Origin: a virus
DNA: 22,553 nucleotides
Virus record (IMG/VR): IMGVR_UViG_3300020370_000303
Coordinates: 1 to 22,553 of that record
Strand: one strand, 5' to 3'
Shown: positions 2,845 to 18,574 of the stretch, one piece after another
Layout of the letters: every line of letters begins with the position of its first letter
Numbering within the stretch: the first letter of the stretch is position 1
Position numbers and translations under genes: made by a program
Notes under the pieces: generated by a model
What the model was told of the DNA's origin: nothing
The model's database searches: none
The model's input: the letters and a program-made list of their open reading frames with translations, nothing else

Positions 2845-3068
2845 TTGATGTATTATGCCAGAATGATCCATACAGGTATGTAAAAATGCCTGATCTCTTG
2901 GAGAATGGACAACCAGACTATCGCATTCAAAAGTGGAACAACCACAATGGATACAAGGACATGTATCTCTGCGATAATTTTATGCAGTTCAAAACTGCGA
3001 TTGAAGATTTTGAATATACAAAATGGTTAGATCCTGCAGGAGTGCCTTGTTACGTACACGATGTCTAA
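2841..3068 (+). CDS. small hypothetical protein upstream of gmd
   Basis: The product is 75 residues starting at the ATG at 2841, in an ATGA overlap with the previous stop. An earlier in-frame ATG at 2817 would give 8 more residues but loses the coupling. It is rich in aromatic residues, Asn and Asp, with no membrane segment and no recognised motif, and looks like a small soluble protein. It overlaps gmd by 8 bases, so the two are almost certainly translated from the same message. Confidence 0.6.
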
Positions 3069-4065
3069 AGTTGCTTTAATTACAGGTATTACAGGACAAG
3101 ACGGATCATACCTTGCCGAACTTCTTTTAGAATTAAAATATGAAGTTCATGGTATAGTTCGTCGTTCCTCTTTGATTAATACTCATAGAATAGATAAGAT
3201 CTATGAAGATATACATCTTCATTATGGAGATCTAACTGATGCTACTAATATGATTAGTGTTATTCAGAAGGTTCAACCAGATGAGATCTATAATCTTGGT
3301 GCTCAAAGTCATGTAAAAGTTTCTTTTGAATTACCAGAATATACAGGACAGGTTGATGGTCTTGGTACTCTTCGTATATTAGAAGCAGTTCGTCTTCTTG
3401 GTATGGAGAAAAAGACAAGAATATACCAAGCATCTACATCAGAACTATATGGTTTAGTGCAAGCAAATCCTCAAACAGAGACAACACCTTTTTATCCAAG
3501 ATCTCCATACGGAGTTGCTAAGTTATATGGATACTGGATTATAAAGAATTATCGTGAAGCATATAATATGCATTGCAGTTCTGGAATTCTTTTTAATCAT
3601 GAATCTCCACGCAGAGGAGAAACTTTTGTTACTCGTAAGATAACACAAGGTCTTTCAAGAATATCTGTTGGACTTCAAGATTGTCTTTATCTTGGTAATC
3701 TTAATGCTAAAAGAGATTGGGGTCATGCAAAAGACTTTGTAGAAGCAATGTATCTTATGCTTCAACAAGATGAACCTGATGATTATGTAATCGCAACTGG
3801 AGAACAACATTCAGTTCGTGAATTTGTAGATGAAGCAGCACCAATATTTGGTTTGAAGTTAGAGTGGATGGGAGAAGGTTTAGATGAGGTTGGTTATGAT
3901 TGGAATACAAAGAGACCTGTTATTAAAGTTGATAAAAGATATTTTAGACCTGCTGAAGTAGAATCTCTTCTTGGAGATCCTACAAAAGCAAAAGAAAAGT
4001 TAGGTTGGGAACCTACAACAACATTCAAACAATTAGTTGAGGACATGTGCATCTATGGACAGTAA
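3061..4065 (+). CDS. gmd: GDP-mannose 4,6-dehydratase
   Basis: Gmd converts GDP-D-mannose to GDP-4-keto-6-deoxy-D-mannose, the first step to GDP-L-fucose, in the cytoplasm. The 334-residue protein is close to the usual length. It has the NADP-binding GITGQDG motif (residues 9-15), the catalytic STSE region (125-128) with T126 and E128, and the SDR pair Y150 and K154 in YGVAK. The nucleotide-sugar-binding region contains [13 protein letters not shown]. It is followed directly by the next enzyme of the pathway, fcl, with a short overlap. Alternative short-chain dehydratases such as RmlB are excluded by the GQDG motif and the RDWGHAKD block. The one missing precursor step, GDP-mannose synthesis, would come from the host. 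Confidence 0.95.
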
Positions 4066-4981
4066 TTCTAAAATCTTTGTTGCAGGACATAAAGGATTAG
4101 TTGGTTCTGCAATTGTTCGTAACCTTGAATCTAAGGGATATAATAATATTATTACGTTAAATCGTAGTCAACTCGATCTAACAAAAGAGAATGATGTTTA
4201 TTGTTTCTTTATGATGGAACAACCTGAGTATGTCTTCAATGCAGCTGCCAAGGTTGGTGGTATTATGGGTAATAAAAATCATCCTGCAGATTTCATATAT
4301 GAAAATTTAAGAATACAAAATAATATTATACATAATGCATATAAAGGAGGAGCAAAGAAACTTATATTTTTAGGATCATCATGCATCTATCCTAAGTTTC
4401 CTAATATTCCAATTACAGAAGATCAACTAATGACAAGTCCTCTTGAGGAATCTAATAGTGCATATGCAATAGCAAAGATTGCAGGTATGAGAATGTGCCA
4501 AGCATATAGACAACAATATGGATTTAATGCAATATCTCTAATGCCCACTAACTTATATGGTATTAATGATAATTTTGATTTAGAAAACTCTCATGTTTTA
4601 CCCGCAATGATTAGAAAGTTTTATCAAGCAGATGAAAAAGTTACACTATGGGGAGATGGATCTGCAATGAGAGAATTTTTACATGTAGACGATCTTGCTG
4701 AAGCATGTTATGTTTGTATGCAAAAGTATGATGAAGAAGAACATATTAATATAGGAACAGGAGAAGATGTTTCTATTAAAGAACTTGCTGAAACTGTTGC
4801 TAAAGTTGTCGGTAATAAAAAAATAGAGTGGGATACATCTAAACCAAATGGTACACCACGAAAAGTACTAAATGTAGATAAGATAAAATCATTAGGTTGG
4901 GAACCAAAAATTGGTTTGGAAGAAGGTATTAGATCAACCTATGAATGGTTTCGTGTTTTATATGGGTATTTAAAAAAATGA
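4055..4981 (+). CDS. fcl: GDP-L-fucose synthase (GDP-4-keto-6-deoxymannose epimerase/reductase)
   Basis: Fcl performs the 3,5-epimerisation and NADPH-dependent 4-reduction that turn the Gmd product into GDP-L-fucose. The 308-residue protein shows GHKGLVGSA near the N-terminus (nucleotide binding, about residues 11-19) and the characteristic AKVGGIMGN block. The catalytic serine lies in GSSCIYP (about 107-113), with Y137 and K141 in YAIAK. The start at 4055 overlaps gmd by 11 bases; an in-frame start at 4037 would add six residues. With gmd it completes GDP-fucose synthesis, and a GT11 fucosyltransferase three genes downstream would use the product. The stop is coupled by ATGA to the next small gene. 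Confidence 0.95.
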
Positions 4982-5151
4982 AATATCATCTGTACGACGA
5001 TCAACAAAGACATCAAGGAACTTTTGAGTCAATAGAAAAACTAAGAAATTTTCTATGTGATCGAAAGTATGATATAAGTTGTGATGCAGATTTGTCATGT
5101 ACATTTGATTATATTAAACATATTAAATGGCATTTTGATATAGAAGAATGA
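4978..5151 (+). CDS. small acidic hypothetical protein
   Basis: This frame encodes 57 residues starting in an ATGA overlap with the fcl stop and ending in an ATGA overlap with the next gene. The product is soluble and rich in Asp, His and aromatic residues (starts [10 protein letters not shown]), with three cysteines, and has no membrane segment. No family is recognised. The double coupling to flanking genes makes it a credible coding region. A role linked to the sugar pathway can only be inferred from position. Confidence 0.65.
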   Translation: MKYHLYDDQQRHQGTFESIEKLRNFLCDRKYDISCDADLSCTFDYIKHIKWHFDIEE

Positions 5152-5741
5152 TTAACGAAAATAATATAGTTGATTTGTTTCCTACACCTTTGTATGTTGC
5201 AACTGATGTTCTAACAAAAGAAGAGAATCAAGAATTAATAGATCATATTATTTCAATACAAGATAAACAAGTTGGAAGGGGAAAAGAACTTTGGCACTCT
5301 GGGATAGGAAGTCCTAAAAATTCTTTTGGATTGGATATAAAAGATAAGCAATTTGATCTTATACTTAAACGTGCTCATTACCATGTGGAGCAATATACTA
5401 AGACTATAAAAGCTGATGTACGCATGGATTACATGAATAAAGAATGGTGGTGGAATCTTTATGAAGGACATAATTATCAAGAATATCATAATCATGTTCC
5501 TCACTTGTTTAGTGGAGTATATTATGCTAAAGTACCACCAGGATCTTCAGATATAAAATTTAGACATCCTGCATGGAGTCTTTATATCCCACATCAAAAT
5601 CAAACTGCATATAATAGTGATGCTTGTAATTTTAAACTTTATGAAAGAGTTATGATAATTTTTCCATCTAGTCTTTTACATTGTGTTGCTTGTGGTCAAA
5701 ACACTGAACCCAGAATATCTTTCTCATTTAATTATGGTTAA
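5148..5741 (+). CDS. 2OG-Fe(II) oxygenase-like protein (HxH variant)
   Basis: The 197-residue protein fits the putative 2OG-Fe(II) oxygenase family widespread in cyanophages (TIGR02466-like). An N-terminal LFPTPLY element typical of that family is followed by H114 and H116 in YHNHVPHLFSGVYYAKVP. H178 lies in FPSSLLHCV and R189 in PRISFSFN. The first ligand pair is HxH, which I believe is usual for this family but should be checked. The gene at 1899 shares the same two motif blocks. It sits between the GDP-fucose genes and the fucosyltransferase with tight coupling on the 5' side, so a role in modifying a sugar or a glycosylated protein is possible but unproven. Confidence 0.8.
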   Translation: MINENNIVDLFPTPLYVATDVLTKEENQELIDHIISIQDKQVGRGKELWHSGIGSPKNSFGLDIKDKQFDLILKRAHYHVEQYTKTIKADVRMDYMNKEWWWNLYEGHNYQEYHNHVPHLFSGVYYAKVPPGSSDIKFRHPAWSLYIPHQNQTAYNSDACNFKLYERVMIIFPSSLLHCVACGQNTEPRISFSFNYG

Positions 5742-5743
5742 CT

Positions 5744-6547
5744 ATGCTATCTATTAATCGTCTTGGTAATTTAGGCAGACTTGCTAATCAAATGTTTCAG
5801 TATGCTTCTTTAAAAGGTATTGCTACTAATAGAGGTTACTCTTTTTGTGTACCTCCTAAAGATGCATTTGGATCTCAAGATGAATTGGTATCTCAATCTG
5901 ATGTTACCATATATGATGTTTTTAAAAATGTAGAGAAAAATGAAATAGGATTTCAAAATAATCAAACTTTATGGGAAAGAATGCATCAGTTTGATGAGGA
6001 ACTATTTGTTAATTGTCCTGATAATGTTGACCTAGTTGGATACTTCCAGACAGAAAAATATTTTAAACATATAGAAGATGATATAAGAAAAGATTTCAGT
6101 TTCTCAACAGACATCACGGAAACCTGTAAAGAGTTGTATGATAGTATTATAGGAGATAAAGAATCTATCTCTCTTCATATTAGGAGAGGAGATTATACTG
6201 TTAATCCTAATCATCCTACTCAATCTATAGAGTATTATGAAAAAGCACTAAGTAAATTTGATGCAAAGATTCCAGTAATTGTTTTTTCAGATGATCCATC
6301 ATGGTGCCATCAACAAGAATTGTTTTCTGATGATAGGTTTATGATTTCTGATGAAAACACAACAGAGTTTGATTTGTGTCTGATGTCTCTTTGCACTTAT
6401 CATATTATTGCTAATTCATCATTTTCATGGTGGGGTGCATGGTTAGCAAAGAGTCAAAAAATTATTGCACCTAAAAATTGGTTCGCTGCTGAATGCGGTA
6501 ACAAAAGTATTCAAGATGTTCCTTTTGGTGATTTTACATTCTTATGA
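5744..6547 (+). CDS. GT11 family fucosyltransferase (alpha-1,2 type)
   Basis: Family GT11 enzymes transfer fucose from GDP-fucose, most often in alpha-1,2 linkage to galactose. The 267-residue product shows the N-terminal GRLANQMFQYA block (residues 11-21). The donor-binding HIRRGD motif is at 145-150, FSDDPSWC at 181-188, and the C-terminal ANSSFSWWGAWL block at 223-234. All are in the expected order and the length is near that of bacterial members. It lies two genes after gmd-fcl, which would supply its donor. It probably acts at the cytoplasmic face on a lipid-linked or LPS-like acceptor. The acceptor sugar cannot be read from sequence. Confidence 0.92.
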   Translation: MLSINRLGNLGRLANQMFQYASLKGIATNRGYSFCVPPKDAFGSQDELVSQSDVTIYDVFKNVEKNEIGFQNNQTLWERMHQFDEELFVNCPDNVDLVGYFQTEKYFKHIEDDIRKDFSFSTDITETCKELYDSIIGDKESISLHIRRGDYTVNPNHPTQSIEYYEKALSKFDAKIPVIVFSDDPSWCHQQELFSDDRFMISDENTTEFDLCLMSLCTYHIIANSSFSWWGAWLAKSQKIIAPKNWFAAECGNKSIQDVPFGDFTFL

Positions 6548-7404
6548 AAACAATTATTATTTCTTCTGACCATAATGGGGTAGAAGACAAACAACAATTA
6601 AAAACTTATCTGAAAGGAGAAGGATATAGAGTTATTGATATAGGTCCTTATACCCCAGAAGTTAGTGTAGATTATGTTGATTATGCTGCTCAGTTATCAA
6701 CAATAGTTGGTAACAAAGAAGCAGATAGAGGTATTCTTATCTGTGGTACTGGAGTTGGGATGAGTATTGTTGCTAATCGTTTCTCTGGTGTTCGTGCTGT
6801 TCTTGCACATAATGAACTTACTGCTGTTAAATCAAGAGAACATAATGATTCAAATGTTCTTTGTTTAGGATCTTGGTTATCTTCTCAAATTGAAATGAGA
6901 GATATGTCTAAGATGTGGTTAGATGAAGCATGGGGAGAAGGAAGGCATGTTAAGAGAGTAGAAAAGATAGATGAACATAGTGGCATAGTTCTTACTAATG
7001 GTGTTTTTGATATTTTACATAAGGGACATATTGAACTTTTAAAATTTTCTAAAAATCAAGGAGATAAACTTATAGTTGCTATTGATTCTGATGAAAGAGT
7101 TAGACAATTAAAAGGAGAAGATAGACCAATTAATAATGAAGAGGATCGCAGAAAAGTATTAGAAACTAATAGGTATGTCGATTCTGTAGTTACTTTTAGT
7201 ACATCAGAAGAACTTAAGAGTTTGTATGAAACTTTACGTCCTAATGTTGTTGTTAAAGGATCAGAATGGACTGCTGATGAATTAAGAAAAAGAGATTCTA
7301 TACCAGATACAATACAAGTTAAGGTATATCCGTTGATTGGAGATTATTCAACTACTAATACAATGGAAAAAATTAGGAATATGGAATCATGCGAGAAGAT
7401 CTAA
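6544..7404 (+). CDS. fusion: RpiB-type sugar-phosphate isomerase + HldE-C (RfaE) nucleotidyltransferase
   Basis: The 286-residue protein joins two enzymes. Residues 1-~140 are an RpiB/LacAB-type aldose-ketose isomerase: SDHNG (8-12), ICGTGVGMSIVANR (66-79) with the presumed catalytic C67, and REHNDSNVLCLG with H100. Residues ~147-280 are a cytidylyltransferase-fold domain of the HldE-C type: TNGVFDILHKGH (151-162) with the HxGH signature, LKGEDRP, VVKGSEW (236-242) and a C-terminal YSTTN. RpiB normally interconverts ribose-5-P and ribulose-5-P. HldE-C loads a heptose-1-P onto a nucleotide. The fusion suggests the isomerase makes the sugar phosphate that, after kinase and phosphatase steps, the second domain activates. 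The kinase partner follows immediately. Confidence 0.92.
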   Translation: MKTIIISSDHNGVEDKQQLKTYLKGEGYRVIDIGPYTPEVSVDYVDYAAQLSTIVGNKEADRGILICGTGVGMSIVANRFSGVRAVLAHNELTAVKSREHNDSNVLCLGSWLSSQIEMRDMSKMWLDEAWGEGRHVKRVEKIDEHSGIVLTNGVFDILHKGHIELLKFSKNQGDKLIVAIDSDERVRQLKGEDRPINNEEDRRKVLETNRYVDSVVTFSTSEELKSLYETLRPNVVVKGSEWTADELRKRDSIPDTIQVKVYPLIGDYSTTNTMEKIRNMESCEKI

Positions 7405-8162
7405 AATTTTTAATAGTTGGAGATACTATAATTGATGAGGATATTTTTCTTATTGCATCAGGTATTTCTTTGGAGACTCCTACATTAAAAACTACTTATG
7501 ATACAAATAAAGTTAAGTATGGTGGTGCAGCTAATGTCGCAAGACAATTGGCAGATTATGATTTAGATGTTACTTTTTTAACTTCTGTATCAAAAGAACA
7601 TATTAATCCTATTAGTTCTACTGGAGCAAAGGTTCTTAATTTTTATCAAGGTAAAAACAATACTAAAACTAGGTATTGGGTATCTCATGGAGATTCTACA
7701 TACAAATATCTTCAAATTAATAATGTAAATGATGAGAATGTTCATCCCTTAATTGATGTGGATTTATCTAAGTATGATATAGTTGCATTTTCCGATTATA
7801 GATGTGGGTTAATAACAGAATCATTTATTGATACATGTACAAATCTTGAATCTACTGAAACATATGCATCATCTCAGATATCAAGTAGAGAATCAAATTA
7901 TTCTTTATATGAGGATGTAGATTATATTGTATGTAATGAAAAAGAATCTAAGTCAGTAGATAGGGATTATGATATCTGTATAACTAAAGGTAGTAAAGGA
8001 TGTTCTTTGAATGGGACTGAATACCCTGTATTTGAACTTGAGAATATTGTCAGTACAATGGGAGCAGGAGATGCTTTCTATGCTGCTTTTTTGGCATCTG
8101 GAGATCCAGAGTTTGCGAATGCAGAAGCTTGTAATTTTATAGAAAGTCAGACGTATGTATAA
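7389..8162 (+). CDS. PfkB-family sugar kinase, HldE-N (RfaE domain I)-like
   Basis: The 257-residue protein has the PfkB/ribokinase signatures in the order seen in the heptose-7-phosphate kinase domain of HldE. These are IVGDTIIDEDIF (9-20), KYGGAANVARQL (43-54), FSDYRCGL (134-141, matching the SDYxKG block of HldE with Lys replaced by Cys), VCNEKE (181-186), ITKGSKG and the catalytic GAGDAF (225-230, D228). It is shorter than typical HldE-N domains of about 310 residues, so loops are trimmed. It overlaps the RpiB::HldE-C gene by 16 bases; together they carry both halves of HldE split and rearranged. A kinase for another sugar phosphate remains possible. Confidence 0.88.
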   Translation: MREDLKFLIVGDTIIDEDIFLIASGISLETPTLKTTYDTNKVKYGGAANVARQLADYDLDVTFLTSVSKEHINPISSTGAKVLNFYQGKNNTKTRYWVSHGDSTYKYLQINNVNDENVHPLIDVDLSKYDIVAFSDYRCGLITESFIDTCTNLESTETYASSQISSRESNYSLYEDVDYIVCNEKESKSVDRDYDICITKGSKGCSLNGTEYPVFELENIVSTMGAGDAFYAAFLASGDPEFANAEACNFIESQTYV

Positions 8163-8853
8163 AGCGATTGAAGATTGTCTGTTACTTAATAAAAGTATCA
8201 AAGATAATAATTTAGTCAAACTTACTTGGGGTAATGCTAGTGTTCTTTCTGAAGATGGGAAGTACATTACTATAAAACCTTCTGGTGTTGATTTCTCTAA
8301 ACTGTCTTACAGTGAAATATGCATCATAGAACTTTATACAGGAAAACAAATATCAGGAAAGAAACCATCTGTAGATACTGCTATTCATTTAGAAATATAC
8401 AAAGCATTTCCAGAGATAAAATCAATAATTCATAGTCATTCAAAGTTTGCTACCTCTTGGGCACAAGCAATGAAACCTATTCCTATATTAGGAACTACTC
8501 ATGCTGATTATTTTTTATCAGATATTCCTTTAGCAAAAGAACTTGAGATTAATGATTTAGAACAATATGAAAAAAGTCTTGGACAATCTGTAGTGGATTA
8601 CTTTCAAGAACAAAAAATTAATCCATTGAACATTCCTGCAATTCTTCTTCCTAAACATGGTGTTATGGTTTTCTCAGATTCACCTGACAGAACTCTAGAG
8701 TGTGCTATAGTATTAGAAGAGATTGCTGAAATGGCATACTATACTACTAATATAAATCGTAGTGTAACAGATGAATTTGATGAGTTCACTGAAGAACTCT
8801 ATACTAAACATTTTGAAAGAAAAAATGGAATCAACAAATACTACGGACAATAG
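8155..8853 (+). CDS. class II aldolase family, AraD-like L-ribulose-5-phosphate 4-epimerase
   Basis: The 232-residue protein matches AraD, which interconverts L-ribulose-5-P and D-xylulose-5-P with a divalent metal. Metal ligands are H93 and H95 in IIHSHS and H168 in PKHGV. The catalytic D118 lies in GTTHADYF and a C-terminal tyrosine pair precedes YGQ (Y229), the positions known for E. coli AraD. The C-terminal KYYGQ ending and the HADYF block favour AraD over fuculose-phosphate aldolase FucA, which belongs to the same superfamily. It overlaps the kinase gene by 8 bases and the cupin gene by 29. In this operon it might feed or drain the pentose-phosphate pool, or act on a related ketose phosphate. 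Confidence 0.88.
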   Translation: MYKAIEDCLLLNKSIKDNNLVKLTWGNASVLSEDGKYITIKPSGVDFSKLSYSEICIIELYTGKQISGKKPSVDTAIHLEIYKAFPEIKSIIHSHSKFATSWAQAMKPIPILGTTHADYFLSDIPLAKELEINDLEQYEKSLGQSVVDYFQEQKINPLNIPAILLPKHGVMVFSDSPDRTLECAIVLEEIAEMAYYTTNINRSVTDEFDEFTEELYTKHFERKNGINKYYGQ

Positions 8854-9247
8854 TTACGGTAGACAAGAATTACCTCCTGTCTTCAAATGCGAAGAGAAGA
8901 GAGATAAGTACTGGGGTTACATTACTACAGTGTTTGCTACTGATGACTTTACTTTGAAAGAAGTCTTCATGAAAGCTGGCACTCAGAGTAGTATGGAGTA
9001 TCATGTAAGAAAGGATGAATATTATTATATTCAATCTGGTAAACTTAAAGTGGGAATGCGAATAGGTCGTGCGAAAAACAAATCCCTTATCCTTGAAAAG
9101 GGAGATGTGTTTCATATTCCACCAGGTTTAATGCATATGCGTATTGCATTAGAGGACACTATTGTGATAGAATGGTCAAACAAGGACGATGATACCGATT
9201 CAAACATCGTTGAAGACGGTAAAACTTATACTTTTATTGAAGACTAA
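8825..9247 (+). CDS. cupin protein, sugar-phosphate isomerase type II-like
   Basis: This 140-residue single-domain cupin has motif 1 in GTQSSMEYHVRKDEYYYIQSG (52-72) with H60 and E65, and motif 2 in KGDVFHIPPGLMHMRI (92-107) with H104. Small cupins of this kind are found next to sugar-nucleotide genes and often resemble the C-terminal isomerase domain of type II phosphomannose isomerases. A sugar-phosphate isomerase or epimerase, or a sensor, is plausible; the reaction is not known. I chose the ATG at 8825, which leaves a 29-base overlap with the AraD-like gene; longer in-frame starts go deeper into it. The start of talC overlaps its stop by one base (TAATG). Confidence 0.8.
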   Translation: MESTNTTDNSYGRQELPPVFKCEEKRDKYWGYITTVFATDDFTLKEVFMKAGTQSSMEYHVRKDEYYYIQSGKLKVGMRIGRAKNKSLILEKGDVFHIPPGLMHMRIALEDTIVIEWSNKDDDTDSNIVEDGKTYTFIED

Positions 9248-9918
9248 TGAATTATCTTTTTGCTGATACTGCCAATCTTGATGAGATTATAAAGGCAAAT
9301 GATATGGGTGTTATACAAGGTGTAACTACAAACCCATCAATTATTGCGAAAGAACCAACAGGAAGTTTTGATAGTCTTATTGAAAAACTTGCTAGGTACT
9401 GTGGGAAAGAAGGTTTATCTTTAAGTGTAGAAGTTTTTGCTGAAGGTTACGAACCTATGGTAGAACAAGCTTCTGAGATATATGATAAATTTGTTGGTTA
9501 CTGTCCAGAACTATATGTAAAGATTCCTGTTAGTGTTGATGGTCTAAAAGCAATCAAAACTTGTAGTAAAGCAGGAGTTAAAATTAATGCTACTATTTGT
9601 TATAGTGAACAACAATTAATACATTGTGCTTCTGCGGGTGCAAAGTATGTTTCATTATTCTACTGTCGTTTGAAACAACATGGTGGAGACGTAAAGAGAG
9701 CACTTAGAAGAACTAAACAATACATCAGAGAGAATGGTTTAGATACACAGATCATTGCAGGTAGTATTCGTACACAACAAGATGTATGTGATGCTTGGGA
9801 TTATGGTGCAGATATTGTTACCACAGGTTTACCTGTAATAAATGAGATGATTCATCATCCTAAAACAAACGAATCTTATGATGGGTTTATGAAGGACTTT
9901 GCTGCATGGATAAAATAA
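9247..9918 (+). CDS. talC: TalC-type transaldolase / fructose-6-phosphate aldolase family
   Basis: The 223-residue protein belongs to the small transaldolase family. It has FADTANLDEI (5-14), GVTTNPSIIAK (25-35), the Schiff-base lysine K92 in LYVKIP, INATICYSEQQ (113-123) and QIIAGSIR (168-175). Phage TalC proteins have been shown to act as transaldolases and are standard host-like metabolic genes of cyanophages. Here the segment after AGAKYVS reads LFYCRLKQHGGD, whereas typical members read PFVGR, so this copy looks divergent. It sits inside the glycan operon. A transaldolase can make sedoheptulose-7-P, the entry metabolite for heptose synthesis, which suits its neighbours. Confidence 0.9.
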   Translation: MNYLFADTANLDEIIKANDMGVIQGVTTNPSIIAKEPTGSFDSLIEKLARYCGKEGLSLSVEVFAEGYEPMVEQASEIYDKFVGYCPELYVKIPVSVDGLKAIKTCSKAGVKINATICYSEQQLIHCASAGAKYVSLFYCRLKQHGGDVKRALRRTKQYIRENGLDTQIIAGSIRTQQDVCDAWDYGADIVTTGLPVINEMIHHPKTNESYDGFMKDFAAWIK

Positions 9919-10238
9919 AAACCTATGTAGTTGATATAGATAATACCATTTGTACGCAAACATTTGGCGATTATTCTAAAGCAAAACCTTATCAAGATCG
10001 AATTAATAAAATTAATGATCTATATGATAAAGGGCATAAGATAATATATTTCACAGCAAGGGGTATGGGTAGAACTAATGATGATCAAGTTTTATCCTAT
10101 GCTTTTTGTTATGAAGAAACACATTACCAATTGACGGATTGGGGATGTAAATTTCATAGACTTATGTTAGGTAAACCTTTTGCTGATCATTATATTGATG
10201 ATAAAGCAATTTCAGATGGAGATTTTTTTAAAGACTAA
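9906..10238 (+). CDS. small HAD-superfamily phosphatase of polysaccharide clusters
   Basis: The 110-residue protein is a minimal cap-less HAD phosphatase. Motif I is VVDIDNTIC with nucleophile D10 and D12; motif II is IIYFTARG (T50). K90 lies in GKPFADHYIDDKA, whose DD (98-99) is motif IV. Such short HAD proteins are common in capsule and LPS clusters, where they probably dephosphorylate sugar phosphates. In this context it could remove a phosphate from a sugar bisphosphate between kinase and nucleotidyltransferase, the GmhB step, although true GmhB proteins are longer and carry a zinc-binding loop not seen here. It overlaps talC by 13 bases and abuts the FkbM gene. Confidence 0.85.
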   Translation: MDKIKTYVVDIDNTICTQTFGDYSKAKPYQDRINKINDLYDKGHKIIYFTARGMGRTNDDQVLSYAFCYEETHYQLTDWGCKFHRLMLGKPFADHYIDDKAISDGDFFKD

Positions 10239-10924
10239 TGACTACAAAATATGAACCATCATCTATAGATAATTTCCGTAAATTTATATCATATAAATTT
10301 AAAGATCCAGATGAAGTATCTGTTATATTTGATGTTGGATCTCTTCATTGTTTAGAATCTATAGAATTATCTAAAGTATATAAAAATGCACGTATCTATG
10401 CTTTTGAAGCAAATCCAGATTCTTATCAAGTTTGTTTAGAAAATACAAAAGATTATGATAATATAACTGTAATTAATAAAGCAGTACATGATCATGATGG
10501 AACATGTATTTTTAATGCAATTGATGCAGATAAAACTGAAACACCTTGGTTTGATGGTAACAGAGGTGCATCTAGTATTTTCAAATCGAATGGTGCTTAT
10601 AATCACATAGAAAAGTATATTCAAAAAGAAATAGAGGTTCCTTGCATACAGTTAGGAACCTTTTGTAAAGAGAATAGTATTAACAACGTAGATGTAATGT
10701 GGATGGATCTTCAAGGTGCAGAACTTATTGCTTTAGAATCTATGGGAAAAGAATTATTAAGTACAGTACAAGTTATTCATACAGAACTTGAAACAACTCC
10801 AATCTATAAAAATCAATGTTTATTCCAAGATGTAAATCATTTTTTAAAAAATAATAATATGTATAGAGCAGAGGGAAATTATGCAGCTCAGTTTGGGCAA
10901 AACTTTATCTTTGTAAGAAAATGA
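10238..10924 (+). CDS. FkbM-family SAM-dependent methyltransferase
   Basis: The 228-residue protein fits the FkbM family of class I methyltransferases, which usually O-methylate sugars. Motif I is IFDVGSLHCLES (30-41), the acidic end of strand 2 is YAFEANPDSY (54-63), and a later strand carries the DVMWMDLQGAEL block typical of the family. The start overlaps the HAD gene by one base (TAATG), and its end overlaps the next gene by four bases. O-methylation of a glycan is the likely role, judged from family and neighbours; the position methylated cannot be inferred. Confidence 0.88.
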   Translation: MTTKYEPSSIDNFRKFISYKFKDPDEVSVIFDVGSLHCLESIELSKVYKNARIYAFEANPDSYQVCLENTKDYDNITVINKAVHDHDGTCIFNAIDADKTETPWFDGNRGASSIFKSNGAYNHIEKYIQKEIEVPCIQLGTFCKENSINNVDVMWMDLQGAELIALESMGKELLSTVQVIHTELETTPIYKNQCLFQDVNHFLKNNNMYRAEGNYAAQFGQNFIFVRK

Positions 10925-11652
10925 TGAAAGTATACTTTGGACAACCTTGGGGTGGTTTAGGAGACAATCTTCAATTCACAACTCTACCAAAACTATTCTC
11001 TGAAAAGGGAGTAGATTTTTTCATATCTCAACATAACACTTATAGAAATCCTGAAATATATGAATTTTGTTGGGCAAATAATCCTTATGTGAAAGGTATA
11101 GTTAGTAATGTAGCAAACGTTGGTTCGTGTGCTCCAGATCTTCAGAAAGGAAGAACTGATAATATTGTATCTGCTGCAGAGATACGTCATGGATTTTTAG
11201 GATCTGGTAGATATCCTGAGATATATTATGATGCTAAAACTTTAGATGAATATAAAGATAAAACTATCGTTGATTTATCTGCACACACTTTGTTAAAAAA
11301 TAATGTTAACGAATTTTATGATGCAGACAAATTGTTTTCCCTTGTAGGAGAAAGAGTTCCAGAGGATGCTTTATTCGTTTCATTCAAAAAAGTAAATTCT
11401 CTTTCTTTATCTGGAGGGTTTCCTTTTGAGAATAATGAATTAGTAGTTGAAAATATCTTTCAGTATGCTAATATAATTAATAGTGCAAAGAGTTACTATT
11501 GTCTTTATTCTGGAGGAAACTCTATGGCAGCTGCTGTTAAATATAAAGAGCAGTCCAAAGTAGAATTAAATTGTTTCCTTCATGGGACAGTTCAAGAACA
11601 TAAAGACAAAGGATTCTTTATTTTCGATAATGTAAATTACATTGAGGTTTAA
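10921..11652 (+). CDS. GT9-like (heptosyltransferase-type) protein, short
   Basis: The 243-residue protein starts with GQPWGGLGDNLQFTTLPKLF (8-27), the GxGDxL...TxxL signature at the N-terminus of GT9 glycosyltransferases such as ADP-heptose:LPS heptosyltransferases. Near the C-terminus YCLYSGGNSMAAAVK resembles the donor-domain block where GT9 enzymes have a Gly/His-rich loop and AAxL. It is clearly shorter than the roughly 340-residue norm, so the C-terminal Rossmann domain appears trimmed. Whether it transfers heptose is uncertain. Its position behind NDP-heptose-type genes supports that reading, but the call rests mainly on the N-terminal block. Confidence 0.6.
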   Translation: MMKVYFGQPWGGLGDNLQFTTLPKLFSEKGVDFFISQHNTYRNPEIYEFCWANNPYVKGIVSNVANVGSCAPDLQKGRTDNIVSAAEIRHGFLGSGRYPEIYYDAKTLDEYKDKTIVDLSAHTLLKNNVNEFYDADKLFSLVGERVPEDALFVSFKKVNSLSLSGGFPFENNELVVENIFQYANIINSAKSYYCLYSGGNSMAAAVKYKEQSKVELNCFLHGTVQEHKDKGFFIFDNVNYIEV

Positions 11653-11653
11653 G

Positions 11654-12349
11654 ATGAAAATTTTGATACTAACTATCGCAACAAACAAATACATTCAATT
11701 TGTAGAAAGGTTGTATGACAATATTGCTGATAACTTTTTAAAAGGACATGATATGGAGTGTCTTTTGTTTACAGACCATGATGTAGAAGCATCAAGTAAT
11801 GTTAAAGTGTCTAAGATAGAACATGAAGATTGGCCAATGCCAACTCTAAAGAGATATAATTATTTTGTAAAAGAAAAAGAATATATTTCTCAATTTGATT
11901 ATTGTTATTATTTTGATATTGATATGGGAATTGTTGAAGATGTAGGAGATGAAGTGTTAAGTGATTTGGTGGGAACAATGCATCCATATCAAACATTTTC
12001 TCCTAAAGAACAAAGAACATATGATCGTAATCCAAATTGTTTGGCATGTGTAAAACCTGGTGAAGAAGGTAATTATTATTATGCAGGTGGTTTTAATGGT
12101 GGTTCTACAGAAAAATTTTTAGAAATGTCAGAAGTTATTGCTGATCGTGTTACTAAAGATCTTGAAAAAGGTATTATTGCTTTGTGGCATGATGAATCAC
12201 ATATGAATCGTTATATGATAGATAACCCTCCTTCATTAAGTTTGACACCTTCTTATTGTTTCGCAGAAGAACAAATGCAAAATCCAGACTATCCTTTTAA
12301 ACCAAAAATTATTGCTTTAAAGAAAAATCATTCTGAACTTAGAACATGA
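11654..12349 (+). CDS. GT6 family glycosyltransferase (histo-blood-group ABO-like)
   Basis: GT6 enzymes transfer alpha-1,3 Gal or GalNAc, in the ABO group onto Fuc-alpha-1,2-Gal acceptors. The 231-residue product has the family blocks in order: KILILTIATNKY at the N-terminus, WPMPTLKRY, FDIDMGI with an intact metal-binding DxD (88-90), YYAGGFNGGS (142-151), LWHDESHMNRY (177-187) and LTPSYCF. Many bacterial GT6 proteins carry NxN at the DxD site, so a phage copy with DxD is notable; a GT6 has been reported from P-SSM2. The start at ATG 11654 follows the previous stop directly; a TTG at 11642 is in frame but overlaps. The downstream gene is coupled by ATGA. Confidence 0.92.
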   Translation: MKILILTIATNKYIQFVERLYDNIADNFLKGHDMECLLFTDHDVEASSNVKVSKIEHEDWPMPTLKRYNYFVKEKEYISQFDYCYYFDIDMGIVEDVGDEVLSDLVGTMHPYQTFSPKEQRTYDRNPNCLACVKPGEEGNYYYAGGFNGGSTEKFLEMSEVIADRVTKDLEKGIIALWHDESHMNRYMIDNPPSLSLTPSYCFAEEQMQNPDYPFKPKIIALKKNHSELRT

Positions 12350-12990
12350 AATTGAAACTTACTGATCTTCCAGTAGTTTATATCAACCTTGATGAACAGG
12401 AAGATAGAAAGGTAACTCTAGAAAAAAATTTAAAAAATCTAGGATTTAAAAATATTATTAGAGTATCTGGATTTAAAGATCCAAACGCAAATAGAGGATG
12501 TGCATATTCTCATGCACTTGCTTTAGAAGAAGTAGATGCTCCTTTTATAGTATTGGAGGATGATAGTGTGCCTCTTAATTTTATTGATGAAATAGAAATA
12601 CCAGATGAGACAGATGCCCTTTATCTTGGAATATCATCTTGGGGACGTATGAATGGACACTCTGGTCCTTGTGTACAATGGGAGTATGCAGATCAAAGAA
12701 CTGATTTGGTTAGAGTATGGAATATGTTAGCTGCACATGCAATTCTATATCTTAATTCGGAGTATGTAGATCTATGTAAAAGAATTGCATATCATGGATA
12801 TTTAATTTCAGATCATCATGATATTGGGTTTGCTGATATTCAAAAATATTATGATGTGTATGCGTTTGATAATCCAATGTTTTATCAGACAAGTTCTAAT
12901 GGAACTGATCAACCATTATCATCATACCCTAGTGTTAGAATAATGGGATATGATGAAAGATTTTGGCTACCTCTAGAAGTTAAAGAATGA
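12346..12990 (+). CDS. GT25-like glycosyltransferase
   Basis: The 214-residue protein resembles family GT25 (LPS glycosyltransferases such as LgtB/LpsA). Its blocks are VYINLDEQEDR (11-21), NRGCAYSHALAL (49-60) and FIVLEDD (67-73). GT25 enzymes are typically galactosyl- or glucosyltransferases acting on lipooligosaccharide cores. The EDD motif is the probable metal and donor site. Both ends are coupled to neighbours by ATGA overlaps. A second GT25-like gene closes the operon at 17303, so this cluster has two. Donor and acceptor cannot be read from sequence. Confidence 0.85.
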   Translation: MKLKLTDLPVVYINLDEQEDRKVTLEKNLKNLGFKNIIRVSGFKDPNANRGCAYSHALALEEVDAPFIVLEDDSVPLNFIDEIEIPDETDALYLGISSWGRMNGHSGPCVQWEYADQRTDLVRVWNMLAAHAILYLNSEYVDLCKRIAYHGYLISDHHDIGFADIQKYYDVYAFDNPMFYQTSSNGTDQPLSSYPSVRIMGYDERFWLPLEVKE

Positions 12991-13907
12991 AGATAGTTAT
13001 TTGGGGACATAAATTACATTCTCATACTCATTCTTATATTCATTATGGATATTGGAGAGCAGCAGATTACTTAGGACATGAAGTATACTGGTATGATGAT
13101 AAAGATGCTGTGCATGATGTAGATTTCTCAAATTCTATTTTTATAACAGAACATCAGGTTTGTAAAAATATACCTTTAAGAAAAGATTGTAAATATTTTA
13201 TTCATAACTCTGATGAACCATTTAAATATGAAAAAAGACAAAAGTATGTTGGATATAAAGTTTATAATTTTGTACACGATTCAAAGCACTGGCATTATGG
13301 AGATAGTTATGTCTGGCCAAGTGTAGAAAACATAGGAGGAAGTTTTTATGAACATCCTACTAGAACTATTGTAACTAAATGGGCAACTGATTTACTACCC
13401 TCAGAAATTGATAAATGTCCAGTAGATCCTTATGATGAAGAAAAGGAAAATATATTTTTTGTAGGATCTATGCAAGGAGAGAACATAAGAAGGTTTGCTG
13501 ATATTGTAAAATCAAAAGGAAAGAACTTTGTAAATGTTGGTGGATATAGTGGAAGATATTCTTTGTATGACGGAAATCCTCCTGATATAAACCAGAACAT
13601 TGCAATGGTTAGAGACTCTTATATATCTTTTGATATTAGAGAGAAACCTTTTTTTGATATGGGTAAATATTATCCTTGTCGAATATTTAAAAGTATTAGT
13701 TATGGAAAATGGTGTGGAAGTAATATGCCAGCAATAAAAGATTTGTTTGGAGATCATGTTACATTTGACAATAACCTAGATACCCTCTATGATAGAGTTG
13801 TAGAAGATTATAAATCTTGTACAGAACAGAAGATGCGTGAAGCAATGAACTTCGTCCGTGATGAACATACATATGTTAATAGACTAAATGATCTACTAAA
13901 GTTATGA
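12987..13907 (+). CDS. putative GT-B glycosyltransferase
   Basis: The 306-residue protein begins with a Rossmann-like strand (MKIVIWGHKLHSHTH) and a YWRAADYLGHEVYW helix/strand, as in GT-B enzymes. Its second half has IFFVGSMQGEN (about 156-166) and a YYPCRIFKSISYGKWCGSN block (about 227-245). That block resembles the region where group 1 and related glycosyltransferases select the donor and keep a dynamic C-terminal arm. The protein is rich in His and Tyr. No CAZy family can be named confidently. The ATGA coupling at both ends places it firmly within the glycan operon. Confidence 0.65.
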   Translation: MKIVIWGHKLHSHTHSYIHYGYWRAADYLGHEVYWYDDKDAVHDVDFSNSIFITEHQVCKNIPLRKDCKYFIHNSDEPFKYEKRQKYVGYKVYNFVHDSKHWHYGDSYVWPSVENIGGSFYEHPTRTIVTKWATDLLPSEIDKCPVDPYDEEKENIFFVGSMQGENIRRFADIVKSKGKNFVNVGGYSGRYSLYDGNPPDINQNIAMVRDSYISFDIREKPFFDMGKYYPCRIFKSISYGKWCGSNMPAIKDLFGDHVTFDNNLDTLYDRVVEDYKSCTEQKMREAMNFVRDEHTYVNRLNDLLKL

Positions 13908-14845
13908 TTAAAAAACTAAGAAGAACTAAAATAGAACCAAAACCAGTAATACCACCAAAACCAAAGTTGAGTGTTGTAACTGGTGGTGCAGGATTTATCG
14001 GATCAAATCTTGTAGAAAGATTACTAGAGAGAGGAGATCAAGTTGTAGTTATAGATAACGAATCTGCAAATACTCATGATGAAGTTTATTGGAATCCTAA
14101 TGCTATGAATGTAAAGGGGGATATAACTGATTTTACTCTTTTAAAAAATGCATGTACAAATGCGGATTGCATTTATCATATGGCAGCAGATATTTCAATT
14201 CAATATTCTATAGAGAATCCAACTGAATCATATAAAAATAATGTTATTGGTACATTAAATGTTTTAGAAGTAGCAAGGGTATTAGGTATTAAGAAGGTGG
14301 TTTTTTCTTCTACTGCAGCAATTTATGGCAGTACATCTGAACCATGTGTAGAGACTGATAGACCTGATCCTTTAAATCCATATTCAGTATCTAAACTTGC
14401 AGGAGAAAACCTGATGAAGATGTATAATGATTTGTATGGTATGCAAACTGTATCTCTTAGGTATTTCAATGTATATGGTCCTCGTCAAGCACACAAGGGA
14501 CAGTACGCTCCTGTTATAGGAATATTTCAAAAACAAAAATTTGAAGGTAAACCTTTAACTATCATTGGAGATGGAAACCAAACAAGAGATTTTATTCATG
14601 TTGCTGATGTAGCACATGCGAACATGATGGTTGCTGAGAGTGATGTAGTTGGTGTATTTAATGTTGGATCTGGTGTAGAGTATTCAGTTAATCAAATTGC
14701 AATGCTTACAAATAATTCTCATGGTACAACTACAATCCCTTCGAGAGAAGGAGAAGCAAGAAGAAGTCTTTCTGATAACACTAAACTTAAAGATATAGGT
14801 TGGCAACCTAGAATAGGATTGGAGGCATGGATCGCTAAACAATGA
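13904..14845 (+). CDS. NAD-dependent nucleotide-sugar epimerase, GalE / UDP-GlcNAc 4-epimerase type
   Basis: The 313-residue extended SDR protein has TGGAGFIGSN (26-35), the catalytic SSTAAIYG (135-142) with S136, YSVSK (160-164) with Y160 and K164, and LRYFNVYGPRQ, a block usual in UDP-sugar 4-epimerases. It also has GDGNQTRDFIHVADVA. It would supply UDP-Gal or UDP-GalNAc from the gluco epimer, the donors used by GT6 enzymes. The first 22 residues form an unusual basic, proline-rich extension (EPKPVIPPKPK) before the nucleotide-binding fold. An alternative is a 4,6-dehydratase or a heptose epimerase, but the block pattern favours a C4 epimerase. Confidence 0.85.
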   Translation: MIKKLRRTKIEPKPVIPPKPKLSVVTGGAGFIGSNLVERLLERGDQVVVIDNESANTHDEVYWNPNAMNVKGDITDFTLLKNACTNADCIYHMAADISIQYSIENPTESYKNNVIGTLNVLEVARVLGIKKVVFSSTAAIYGSTSEPCVETDRPDPLNPYSVSKLAGENLMKMYNDLYGMQTVSLRYFNVYGPRQAHKGQYAPVIGIFQKQKFEGKPLTIIGDGNQTRDFIHVADVAHANMMVAESDVVGVFNVGSGVEYSVNQIAMLTNNSHGTTTIPSREGEARRSLSDNTKLKDIGWQPRIGLEAWIAKQ

Positions 14846-15882
14846 CTAAAGTATTACATTTATCCCACCATTATGGTTGTCTTAAAGATCACCAATATGT
14901 GTGCGATAAACTTGGATTGGATTTAACAAACAAACTTTCTATATGGAATGATATTATAAAGAGAGATGTCTATCGTATTACCAAAGCGATAGCAGACTCT
15001 ACTTGGAAAGAACATAAAGATTATTTTAATTCTTTTGATTTTATTATTACATCTGATACCGCACCTCTATCAAGAATATTCTTAGAGAATATTGATGAGT
15101 TTAAAGGACAGCTAATCGTATGGGTATGTAATAGATTTAATTATGAGATGCATGATGATATTGGTTATCATAACCTTATGAATGAATCTGTAGGTAAAGA
15201 TAATGTAAAAATAATTCCATATACAAAGTTTGAAAGTATGTGGGCTGAAGCATATAAGGTTAATTTGACCGAAGATGTAATTCGCCCTATCGGAGTTTCG
15301 ATTGATAAACCACTCTCTGAAAGCGAAGATTTAAACTTGATTGGTTTTGGTGGAGATTATGGGGATGAATTAAAAGGAGGGGATGTATTAGTTTCTAGGT
15401 ATCATAATGATACTTTATGGCAAGACTCTGTAAAGATGATGGAACATTTTAATCTATCAGCAGATCCATGTAAGTATAGAGGATATAAAGGATTAGTAGA
15501 ACTTGCTAAAAAATATGAAGCATATTTTATTTTACCAGAACAGTATTCTAAATTTGCTGCTTTTGAATTAATGAATATAGGTTTACCTGTTATTCTTCCA
15601 TCAGAAGAGTTTCTTCTTCATCTTTCATCTGCTAAAAATCACTCAACAGGTAATAACTATTGGTTTGGTAGTGGATTATATAAAGATACTACAAACGTTT
15701 GTGAATGGTATAATGAATACTATGATCAGTTCGCTCTTTATATTGATGATTTTGAAGATATTCCAGAAACATTTAAAATAGTAAAGGAGCATAAAAAGAA
15801 AATTCGTGGTATAATGAAGAAGTGTGCCAAAGAACACCAGAGTAAGACCTTAGATCAGTGGAGGAAAATTTATAATGTCTAA
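14842..15882 (+). CDS. putative GT-B glycosyltransferase
   Basis: The 346-residue protein has an N-terminal KVLHLSHHYGCLKD block and a C-terminal block EQYSKFAAFELMNIGLPVILPS (quoted key part: AFELMNIGLPVILPS). The C-terminal block matches the donor-site region of GT-B enzymes, where a Glu-containing segment precedes a Gly-x-Pro-Val-Ile strand. Length fits a two-domain GT-B enzyme. A precise family cannot be named. It is coupled by ATGA to the epimerase gene and overlaps the next methyltransferase gene by 8 bases. It probably adds one sugar of the same glycan. Confidence 0.65.
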   Translation: MTKVLHLSHHYGCLKDHQYVCDKLGLDLTNKLSIWNDIIKRDVYRITKAIADSTWKEHKDYFNSFDFIITSDTAPLSRIFLENIDEFKGQLIVWVCNRFNYEMHDDIGYHNLMNESVGKDNVKIIPYTKFESMWAEAYKVNLTEDVIRPIGVSIDKPLSESEDLNLIGFGGDYGDELKGGDVLVSRYHNDTLWQDSVKMMEHFNLSADPCKYRGYKGLVELAKKYEAYFILPEQYSKFAAFELMNIGLPVILPSEEFLLHLSSAKNHSTGNNYWFGSGLYKDTTNVCEWYNEYYDQFALYIDDFEDIPETFKIVKEHKKKIRGIMKKCAKEHQSKTLDQWRKIYNV

Positions 15883-16594
15883 TGCCTTAGAAACATATAA
15901 AAATTATATGGATAATGCTCATTGGAATTACACAACCAAAGAGCAATTTGAACAGTATTATGGCAGAGTACCAAAGTTCAGATACGATACAATGAAGTAT
16001 TGTTGGGATCAGGTTGTAAAATATAATTTTAAAACTATTGTAGAATTGGGTACTACAAGAAGTTTTGTTGATGGTAAGTTTCCTGGTTGCAATGAAGATG
16101 ATACAAAATACTGGCAACCAAATGTTCCTGCTATATGGGATTGGTCTGCAGGATGTTTTACTCGTGTTATTGGCGAAATGGTTCAAGGAACTGATATAGA
16201 GTTTATAACAGTAGATTTAAATCCATTACATATTGCAAGAAGTAAAGTAGTATCAGAAGGTCTTTCTAATATAGAGTATCATATAATGTCATCTGAAGAT
16301 TTCTTATCTTCTGGAGAAGGACAAATAGATTTTCTTTATATGGATACAGGAGATATGCATCCTATAGAACCAACAGCAGAGTTGCATTTAAGAGAAGCAG
16401 AGTTGATTGCAGGGTGTGATATAATAAGTAAGAATGGTGTAATACTTATTGATGATGTAAGAAATACAACACCTAAGATTGTTGATAGTGATGAATCTGA
16501 TTATGGTAAAGCAAAGTATTCGATTCCTTTTCTTTTGAGAAATGGTTTTGATTTAGTTATGGATGAATATCAGGTGGTGCTTCAAAAGAAATGA
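15875..16594 (+). CDS. class I SAM-dependent methyltransferase (Methyltransf_24-like)
   Basis: The 239-residue protein has an aromatic N-terminal region, then motif I-like TIVELGTTRSF (54-64). The acidic strand is EFITVDLNPLHIARSK, followed by IDFLYMDTGD and NGVILIDDVRN, as in Methyltransf_24-type enzymes often seen in glycan clusters. A small-molecule or sugar O-methyltransferase role is likely. It differs in fold detail from the FkbM enzyme at 10238, so the operon carries two unrelated methyltransferases. The end is coupled by ATGA to the next glycosyltransferase gene. Confidence 0.8.
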   Translation: MSNALETYKNYMDNAHWNYTTKEQFEQYYGRVPKFRYDTMKYCWDQVVKYNFKTIVELGTTRSFVDGKFPGCNEDDTKYWQPNVPAIWDWSAGCFTRVIGEMVQGTDIEFITVDLNPLHIARSKVVSEGLSNIEYHIMSSEDFLSSGEGQIDFLYMDTGDMHPIEPTAELHLREAELIAGCDIISKNGVILIDDVRNTTPKIVDSDESDYGKAKYSIPFLLRNGFDLVMDEYQVVLQKK

Positions 16595-17310
16595 AAGTAA
16601 AAATAATCTCCCCAGTAGTAAACATTCCTTCGTTTCTTGATATACAGATATCAAAGTTCAAAGAAAATCTTCTTTCTGATTTTGAACTTATATGTATTGA
16701 TGATTCAAAACAAAAAGGTTTAGATCAACAATTCAGAAATGTTTGTTCTGAACATGATGATGTAGCAACATGGTTTAAAAATACAAGACCTCCTGTTTCA
16801 GGTCCTTCAATGGGTCATGCAAATGCTATTCAGTTTGCATTGGATAATATTGTATATACATCTTGTTTAAATGATATTGTATTTCTTGTAGACAGTGATA
16901 TATTCTTAATGGAGAAGATAGATTTAATTGAGTTTATGAAAGATAAGGAGATTGCTTCTTTCATGCAGAGTAGAGAGAATGTTGATTACCTTTGGCCAGG
17001 TCTTACTATATTAAATATGCCTGAGATAAAGAAATATGATTCTGATATTAAATTTTTTCCTGGTTGGTTTGGTGGACAAATGTGCGATACTGGAGGAGAG
17101 TCTCATAATTTTATTTTTGAAAACAACATTCAACCTCATCCAATAAATTGTAAGTTTGAGGGAGAATATAGAGGAGAAACTTTAGTAAACATGGAAACTT
17201 TTATGGATGAAAAGTTCCTTCATTTTAGAGGTGGAACTATATGGGATAATAAAGTTGATGTCTTTAAACAAAAAATTGAAATCTTAAATAACATTCTTGC
17301 ACATGGATAA
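16591..17310 (+). CDS. putative GT-A (GT2-like) glycosyltransferase
   Basis: The 239-residue protein has a GT-A layout. A beta strand at the N-terminus (KVKIISPVVNI) is followed by FELICIDDSKQKG (31-43), SMGHANAIQFAL (73-84, an alternation helix) and IVFLVDSDIF (96-105) with the metal-binding DSD at 101-103. A later segment, HFRGGT, may supply the third metal ligand. It looks like a divergent GT2-type enzyme. It overlaps the last gene of the operon by 8 bases. Donor and acceptor are unknown. Confidence 0.7.
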   Translation: MKVKIISPVVNIPSFLDIQISKFKENLLSDFELICIDDSKQKGLDQQFRNVCSEHDDVATWFKNTRPPVSGPSMGHANAIQFALDNIVYTSCLNDIVFLVDSDIFLMEKIDLIEFMKDKEIASFMQSRENVDYLWPGLTILNMPEIKKYDSDIKFFPGWFGGQMCDTGGESHNFIFENNIQPHPINCKFEGEYRGETLVNMETFMDEKFLHFRGGTIWDNKVDVFKQKIEILNNILAHG

Positions 17311-18524: not shown

Positions 18525-18561
18525 AGATGAAACTGACTACTCAATTCACAACACAAAAAAC

Positions 18562-18566
18562 AGGAG
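18562..18566 (+). promoter_or_regulatory. Shine-Dalgarno site AGGAG for the third hli gene
   Basis: AGGAG lies 8 bases before the ATG at 18575 and supports that start over the in-frame ATG at 18527, which lacks a ribosome binding site. Confidence 0.55.
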
Positions 18567-18574
18567 CAAAACTC

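Follow-up and report, generated by a model that had tools for sequence, protein, structure and literature searches.

The 22,553-nucleotide virus record IMGVR_UViG_3300020370_000303 (IMG/VR), analyzed over its full length and called the window below, carries one dense block of 21 plus-strand open reading frames (ORFs) at positions 3061–18088. Judged by its genes, the block is a surface-glycan cluster of the type found in the T4-like cyanophage P-SSM2, and its enzyme kit is not new. We propose, with a probability of about 0.6, that this surface-glycan operon alters the surface of the infected host through an oligosaccharide containing fucose and α-linked galactose (Gal) or N-acetylgalactosamine (GalNAc), abbreviated α-Gal(NAc). 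The proposal starts from features read directly from the window, namely its gene content, the packing of the genes, the families and catalytic residues of their products, and purifying selection. Central to it are genes for GDP-fucose synthesis (gmd and fcl), a glycosyltransferase (GT) of family 11, a GT6 transferase, a GT25-type transferase, and a nucleotide-sugar epimerase (Table 1).

Neighboring genes of the block abut or overlap, with gaps that range from −37 to +2 when fcl and the cupin gene are entered with their domain starts in place of start codons. This packing is consistent with a single operon. A sequence-only reading of the same DNA had described one operon that ended at 14845; the 21 packed, same-strand genes agree with the operon, whereas its end appears to lie farther downstream, as the block continues for ~3.2 kb to a GT25 gene ending at 18088. 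We compared 18 of the 21 genes with their counterparts in a closely related contig, L013, whose GT6 is 94.8% identical. The ratio of nonsynonymous to synonymous substitution rates (dN/dS) was 0.05–0.30 in 18/18 genes, which are thus under purifying selection.

Table 1 Genes of the glycan cluster in the window, in order of position.
Gene or product	Coordinates	Strand	Basis
gmd, GDP-mannose 4,6-dehydratase	3061..4065	+	PF16363 4.5e-149; TIGR01472; 1db3
fcl, GDP-L-fucose synthase	4055..4981	+	PF01370 1.2e-65; ATG at 4055 picked by eye
Small ORF, 68 amino acids, between fcl and oxygenase	4945..5151	+	ORF list; overlaps both neighbors
2-Oxoglutarate (2OG)-Fe(II) oxygenase	5148..5741	+	PF13759 8.3e-16; phrog_81 1.7e-36
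GT11 fucosyltransferase	5744..6547	+	PF01531 2.1e-26, 93.3 bits vs cut-off 23.9
RpiB-type sugar-phosphate isomerase fused to RfaE-domain-II-type nucleotidyltransferase	6544..7404	+	PF02502 + PF01467
PfkB-type sugar kinase, nearest RfaE domain I	7389..8162	+	PF00294 8.3e-11
Class II aldolase/AraD-like	8155..8853	+	PF00596 8e-40
Cupin, start approximate	8825..9247	+	PF00190 1.3e-8
Transaldolase/FSA-like	9247..9918	+	PF00923 2.7e-42
Small HAD-type phosphatase, EcbF/BcbF-like	9906..10238	+	TIGR01689 41.9, under cut-off 162
FkbM-type methyltransferase	10238..10924	+	PF05050 1.3e-17
Protein without family	10921..11652	+	no Pfam at E ≤ 0.1, no PHROG at E ≤ 0.01
GT6 glycosyltransferase	11654..12349	+	PF03414 2.1e-36, 125.8 bits vs cut-off 25
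GT25-type transferase, usual downstream neighbor of GT6	12346..12990	+	phrog_24091; AlphaFold2 (AF2) model; VIA-align
Protein without family	12987..13907	+	no Pfam at E ≤ 0.1, no PHROG at E ≤ 0.01
Short-chain dehydrogenase/reductase (SDR) nucleotide-sugar epimerase, probably UDP-hexose(NAc) C4 epimerase	13904..14845	+	PF01370 7.4e-62
Protein without family	14842..15882	+	no Pfam at E ≤ 0.1, no PHROG at E ≤ 0.01
Methyltransferase-like protein	15875..16594	+	PF13578 4.9e-4, under gathering score
Possible GT2-like protein	16591..17310	+	PF00535 0.04 only
GT25 transferase, last gene of cluster	17303..18088	+	PF01755 1e-14; phrog_2835 5e-123

The proteins of gmd, fcl, the GT11 and GT6 genes and the epimerase gene, on which the sequence-only reading had been built, are present and look intact, with reservations for the equivalog profiles of Fcl and the epimerase that are given below. 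Gmd scores 548.6 bits against the TIGR01472 equivalog cut-off of 415, and its closest solved relative is E. coli Gmd (1db3, 8.6e-145). The best solved relatives of Fcl are GDP-L-fucose synthases (7ll6, 1.8e-98; 1bsv, 1.7e-96), as are all of its top 18 solved sequences, one of which bears the name of the reaction; the protein contains the motifs GHKGLVG, GSSCIYP, and YAIAK. The epimerase carries the SDR motifs GGAGFIG and YSVSK, and the closest solved chain is the UDP-glucose 4-epimerase 4zrm (2.9e-56). Read off the 4zrm alignment, a Ser occupies the place of Tyr299 in E. coli GalE; we take this to be common in short epimerases and made no use of it. Between the window and contig L013, gmd is 97.0% identical and fcl only 70.6%, and the FkbM gene was not detected in L013. 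These differences suggest that genes may be exchanged within the cluster.

Both family motifs of GT11, HxRRxD and SxSWWGA, are found in the window protein, and residues H145, R147, R148, D150, N224, S225, and S228–G231 are invariant across 54 aligned sequences. Searching solved structures by sequence gave no match for GT11 (the best hit, at E = 0.024, was unrelated). The AF2 model, by comparison, has a mean predicted local distance difference test score (pLDDT) of 95.1 and a fucosyltransferase-like fold: Foldseek ranks 1–43 are all fucosyltransferases (NodZ, FUT8, POFUT1, AtFUT1), with a query-normalized TM score of ~0.5, and heptosyltransferases appear at ranks 44 and 50. The model thus matches GT-B enzymes that use GDP-fucose. 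Structure prediction of GT11, and profile searches of GT11 and GT6, had been suggested as checks by the sequence-only reading, and all of them agree with its family assignments. Because the GT11 family also includes the α1,3 enzyme HhFT2 (PMC4202792), membership in the family leaves the linkage undecided.

GT6 is closest among solved proteins to BoGT6a, an A-type α1,3-GalNAc transferase of Bacteroides ovatus (8e-37), with ABO enzymes following from 7e-34. Its DxD motif is intact, as had been claimed, and reads D88-I-D90 (Asp-Ile-Asp), the vertebrate type as opposed to the NxN of most bacterial GT6 enzymes. DxD is tied to metal dependence in this family (PMC3961637), and with DxD in place of NxN the window enzyme is probably metal-dependent. 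The catalytic Glu, E181 in WHDESH, aligns with E192 of BoGT6a. On the donor side, the triplet A143-G144-G145 (AGG) is that of BoGT6a, whereas alpha3GT has HAA; our donor assignment rests on this identity, and the third position of the triplet makes no contribution to the A/B difference (PMC4202792). BoGT6a transfers GalNAc to fucosylated acceptors, and its ligand contacts have been tabulated (PMC3961637). Across 21 positions that cover most of those contacts and a few neighbors, 16 are identical, and three of the five that differ fall in the DxD stretch.

The acceptor side is less uniform. H110 corresponds to the acceptor-site His of BoGT6a (H122) and of the ABO chain, where alpha3GT has Gln. 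Two residues on, the window enzyme has Tyr112 where BoGT6a has Gly124, the ABO chain compared has Ser, and alpha3GT has Trp, a difference that speaks against an A/B-like enzyme. In alpha3GT this Trp is Trp249, which packs against the N-acetylglucosamine (GlcNAc) of the acceptor. The ABO residue at this position, 235, is Gly or Ser (PMC4202792), a small residue, which Tyr112 is not. The acceptor of alpha3GT is unfucosylated Gal-β4-GlcNAc (PMC4202792). GT6 therefore looks A-like on its donor side and mixed on its acceptor side.

These features were followed in 85 phage GT6 representatives, obtained by clustering at 90% the 195 sequences from the loci that are 200–320 amino acids long, and in the best 80 of 206 bacterial loci. 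All 85 phage representatives keep DxD together with the catalytic Glu and the acceptor His; their donor triplets are AGG (45), QGC (36), AAA (3), and QGS (1). The QGC triplet marks a second phage class, seen in loci L003, L005, L006, L011, and others, and in S-CAM9. At the position of Tyr112, phage representatives include 38 with Tyr, 30 with Cys, and 10 with Gly (L077 is a natural relative with Gly), and bacterial enzymes carry Gly in 59, Tyr in one, and Trp in one, with four unaligned. DxD is present in 31/80 bacterial enzymes, many from metagenome-assembled genomes titled Dependentiae, Babeliales, or Chlamydiae. A search of plasmids for GT6 gave 2 of 72,556 records.

The steadier partners of GT6 are the GT25-type gene and the epimerase. 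To count partners, we took the 86 loci on viral contigs whose GT6 best matched that of the window and clustered them at 90%, which left 32 representatives, all but one of AGG or FAGG type by pattern. WHDES is present in 31/32; the exception is a GT6 ORF at ~6458 of L095, which may have undergone a frame change or be a degenerate copy. For 29 of the representatives the sequence extends 3.5 kb past GT6; 26 of the 29 have the GT25-type gene no more than 1.5 kb downstream, and 25 have an epimerase within 3.5 kb. The protein encoded at 12346–12990 does not itself match the Pfam GT25 profile (PF01755) at E ≤ 0.1, which 19/43 aligned relatives do. Its AF2 model (pLDDT 90.2) is best matched in VIA-align by COLGALT1 (Z 15.6, root-mean-square deviation (RMSD) 2.9, 171 aligned residues), and β-1,4-galactosyltransferase is also found (Z 12.8, RMSD 3.3, 153 residues). 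Foldseek TM scores are middling (0.5), and sugar-nucleotidyltransferases also appear in the Foldseek and VIA-align lists. The modeled protein thus looks like a galactosyltransferase of GT25 type. Together with GT6 and the epimerase, it fits a unit that would make UDP-Gal(NAc), add β-Gal, and then add α-Gal(NAc).

Does gene context also tie GT6 to GT11? The sequence-only reading had argued from the order of the enzymes, an argument weakened by the eight genes (~5.1 kb) that separate GT11 from GT6 in the window. GT11 lies upstream of GT6 in 24 of the 26 representatives whose sequence reaches 9 kb upstream. We also anchored clusters on GT25, retaining the 113 of 160 loci that had 9 kb upstream and dropping the rest. 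GT11 occurs in 99/113 of these clusters whether or not GT6 is present: 47 have both, 52 GT11 only, 10 GT6 only, and four neither (one-sided Fisher p 0.98), and the corresponding counts are 34, 31, 5, and 3 at 90% clustering and 15, 19, 4, and 1 at 80%. Because GT11 is near-ubiquitous in such clusters, its co-occurrence with GT6 is uninformative, and we rejected it as a sign of joint action. With GT11 as the anchor, GT6 is found downstream in 17/38 loci with 8 kb of downstream sequence and is adjacent in seven of the 17.

Adjacency gave a different picture. When all phage GT6 are taken together, GT11 directly precedes GT6 in 13/38 clusters at 75% identity (2.9 expected; p 5e-6), in 5/13 at 60% (1.0 expected; p 0.002), and in 2/7 at 45%, which is not significant (p 0.17), in permutations that ignore shared ancestry. 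Splitting the representatives with 3 kb of upstream sequence by class placed this signal in the QGC/Cys enzymes (16/24), as opposed to AGG/Tyr, the class of the window (3/32, close to the permutation mean per locus), and QGC without Cys (0/6). The adjacent GT11 and GT6 genes of S-CAM9, DSL-LC02, B23, and S-8S55, considered as support for an A/B determinant, do not carry over, since such adjacency is absent as a signal from AGG/Tyr. By gene position, a link to fucose is credible for the QGC/Cys class and unsupported for the AGG/Tyr class. In bacteria, GT11 lies within the GT6 flanks (≤6 kb) in 41/80 loci, often touching GT6; it accompanies 25/39 NxN and 7/31 DxD enzymes, and the fetched flanks (≤6 kb) of the remaining 24/31 DxD enzymes have no GT11.

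In the surface-glycan operon that we propose, donors, linkages, order of transfer, acceptor, and biological role are predictions. During infection, Gmd and Fcl would supply GDP-L-fucose in the cytoplasm, and the epimerase would supply UDP-Gal or UDP-GalNAc. The GT25-type transferases, GT11, and GT6 would then assemble an oligosaccharide that contains fucose and α-Gal(NAc), on an acceptor that the host exports, most likely its lipopolysaccharide (LPS). Export would proceed through host machinery because none of the operon genes is predicted, by a simple hydropathy threshold, to encode a membrane span. Midway along the operon, a separate cassette may provide a heptose-type activated sugar. As a result, the infected cell would present an altered surface, which might for instance hinder superinfection. 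Such alteration is commonly suggested for clusters of this kind (PMC9602691, in the part available), and it is plausible as the role of this cluster.

Several observations weigh against this proposal. Fcl scores 445.3 against the NF047922 (NCBIfam) equivalog cut-off of 500. The epimerase reaches 183.7 bits with TIGR01179, under the GalE equivalog cut-off of 262.3; the GalE-type C4 epimerase of the sequence-only reading, favored by the SDR assignment and by 4zrm as closest chain, is thus likely only, and we file the protein as an SDR nucleotide-sugar epimerase. Three operon proteins match neither Pfam (E ≤ 0.1) nor PHROG (E ≤ 0.01) families (Table 1). By a simple hydropathy threshold none of the operon genes encodes a membrane span, and a flippase, polymerase, or ligase is not evident among them, so that export would run via the host or the acceptor would be cytoplasmic. 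We know of no measured chemistry for any of these phage enzymes.

Two alternatives concern what GT6 acts upon. According to one, GT11 makes Fuc-α1,2-Gal and GT6 adds α1,3-GalNAc (or Gal) to it, generating the true A- or B-like determinant that the sequence-only reading had put forward. In its favor, the AGG triplet and H110 are those of BoGT6a, GDP-fucose genes share the operon, and the GT11 model is fucosyltransferase-like; GT11 also flanks about half of the bacterial GT6 genes and stands immediately upstream of phage GT6 above permutation at 75% and 60% clustering. The argument falters at Tyr112, a position that is Gly in BoGT6a and most bacterial GT6, and in the gene context, where co-occurrence is at background, with no enrichment of GT11 beside GT6, and adjacency belongs to QGC/Cys rather than AGG/Tyr and loses significance at 45% clustering. 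We regard such a determinant as possible, short of probable. GT6 may instead resemble alpha3GT and act on unfucosylated β-galactose provided by the neighboring GT25-type enzyme, while GT11 places fucose elsewhere in the glycan. An aromatic residue at the acceptor position, the galactosyltransferase-like usual neighbor, and the mostly separate placement of GT6 and GT11 in this class agree with such an activity; H110, which is His as in ABO and BoGT6a rather than Gln, and the triplet AGG rather than HAA do not, and Tyr, being smaller than Trp, might still admit fucose. This too is a real possibility that stops short of being the expected outcome.

The remaining alternatives question the destination of the glycan or its very existence. 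That it is attached within the cell to a virion protein or to phage DNA, rather than to host LPS, would agree with an operon in which no export or membrane gene is evident. No link to virion protein or to modified bases turned up, although no search was aimed at one; nor does anything observed bear on the coating of virions that the sequence-only reading had raised. Similar clusters are read as LPS genes in the passages available from PMC3037559 and PMC9602691; we consider this destination unlikely. The suggestion that the operon is non-functional filler for headful packaging, a possibility raised for cyanophage LPS clusters as "stuffer DNA" (PMC3037559, in the part available), is very hard to reconcile with the low dN/dS of every gene compared and with catalytic and acceptor residues that are kept throughout the phage GT6 representatives.

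The stretch between GT11 and GT6 encodes the RpiB/RfaE-II fusion, the PfkB kinase, the AraD-like protein, the cupin, transaldolase, the HAD phosphatase, the FkbM protein, and a protein without family. The fusion scores 145.2 with TIGR01120 (rpiB), over the cut-off of 138.65, and 129.5 with rfaE_dom_II, under the cut-off of 181.5. The kinase has no solved relative at E ≤ 0.001 and reaches 58.7 with rfaE_dom_I, far below the cut-off of 345; the AraD-like protein scores 229.3 with the AraD subfamily NF006047 (cut-off 257). The phosphatase matches phrog_1238 (7.5e-31), a family labeled phosphoheptose isomerase. Transaldolase is 33% identical to P-SSM2 talC and is perhaps an enzyme of the cassette pathway rather than the talC of the pentose-phosphate pathway. 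If these proteins work like their relatives, transaldolase would form sedoheptulose-7-phosphate, RpiB would isomerize it, PfkB would phosphorylate the product, HAD would take off a phosphate, and the RfaE-II domain would activate the result to yield a heptose-type sugar. The RfaE-type parts lie under their cut-offs, and the AraD-like protein and the cupin have no place in this putative route.

The five genes at 6544–9918 that begin the cassette recur on viral contigs, in three further sets of GT6 loci (L013/L014, L023-type, and L093/L094). They are also found in L418 and L419, where phmmer with the window GT11 and GT6 gave no match within ~7–8 kb; the cassette can thus occur without detected GT11 or GT6. 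Among 50,697 phage records, 145 matched the RpiB/RfaE-II fusion, none of them covering 80% of it.

The closest annotated system we found is the LPS cluster of P-SSM2 (AY939844, PSSM2_257-271). Its genes follow the order of the window, with Gmd, epimerases/Fcl-like SDR, GT11, GT6 (PSSM2_268), a homolog of the 12346–12990 protein, SDR epimerase, GT25, hli, and ferredoxin; its GT6 and GT11 are 73.6% and 60.3% identical to those of the window, and the record itself annotates "Glycosyltransferase family 6" and "family 11". P-SSM2 differs in the GT1- and GT2-type genes that precede GT11 and in having two genes between GT11 and GT6, compared with eight in the window, among them the RpiB/RfaE-type cassette. 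By megablast, ~10% of the window aligns with P-SSM2 and P-SSM5. In ACG-2014f, GT11 and GT6 are accompanied by Gmd and two other SDRs; in DSL-LC02 they are accompanied by Gmd and Fcl, and the fetched stretch showed no epimerase. In the available text of a 2022 paper (PMC9602691), Gmd, Fcl, and an α1,2-fucosyltransferase of cyanophage S-SCSM1 are read as GDP-L-fucose synthesis and fucosylation, and GT6 is unmentioned. GT6 had been noted in "two cyanophages" by 2014 (PMC3961637, in the part available).

Outside phages, BoGT6a resembles the window GT6 in the residues described above and differs in having NxN and Gly124 where the window has DxD and Tyr112. E. coli O86 (B-type) combines GT11 and the GT6 enzyme WbnI in one surface-glycan pathway, according to the available portions of PMC4202792 and PMC4506291. 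The likeness is at the level of families, and sequential transfer in O86 is known from experiment, whereas the phage system is known from genes alone. In what was available of the literature on cyanophage GT6 and fucosyltransferases, we saw no suggestion that phages make an ABO-like glycan; searches on P-SSM2 LPS, phage GT6, phage heptose or transaldolase, and BoGT6a with fucosyllactose yielded nothing useful.

It is tempting to extend these results to a broader picture, which we think is somewhat unlikely to hold as a whole. Cyanophages would maintain two specialized GT6 lineages, QGC/Cys with GT11 upstream and AGG with a GT25-type galactosyltransferase and epimerase, that make A-like determinants and variants as interchangeable surface serotypes on marine picocyanobacteria, and the phage of the window would contribute, through its own cassette fed by transaldolase, an activated heptose-like sugar. 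Should any cyanophage GT6 use the product of GT11 as its acceptor, ABO-type chemistry would be found in very abundant viruses of the ocean, with DxD enzymes that are closer in this respect to those of animals than most bacterial GT6 are. The residue classes AGG/Tyr and QGC/Cys turn the label "LPS genes" into testable predictions of donor and acceptor.

Beside the block lie genes of other kinds. Upstream, the ORF at 1854–2585 resembles a 2OG-Fe(II) oxygenase by eye, in addition to the one Pfam-supported oxygenase within the block (5148–5741). On the 3′ side, ORFs at 18214–18804 match hli genes from previously known cyanophages in alignments, and the ORF at 20187–20477 was read by eye as ferredoxin.

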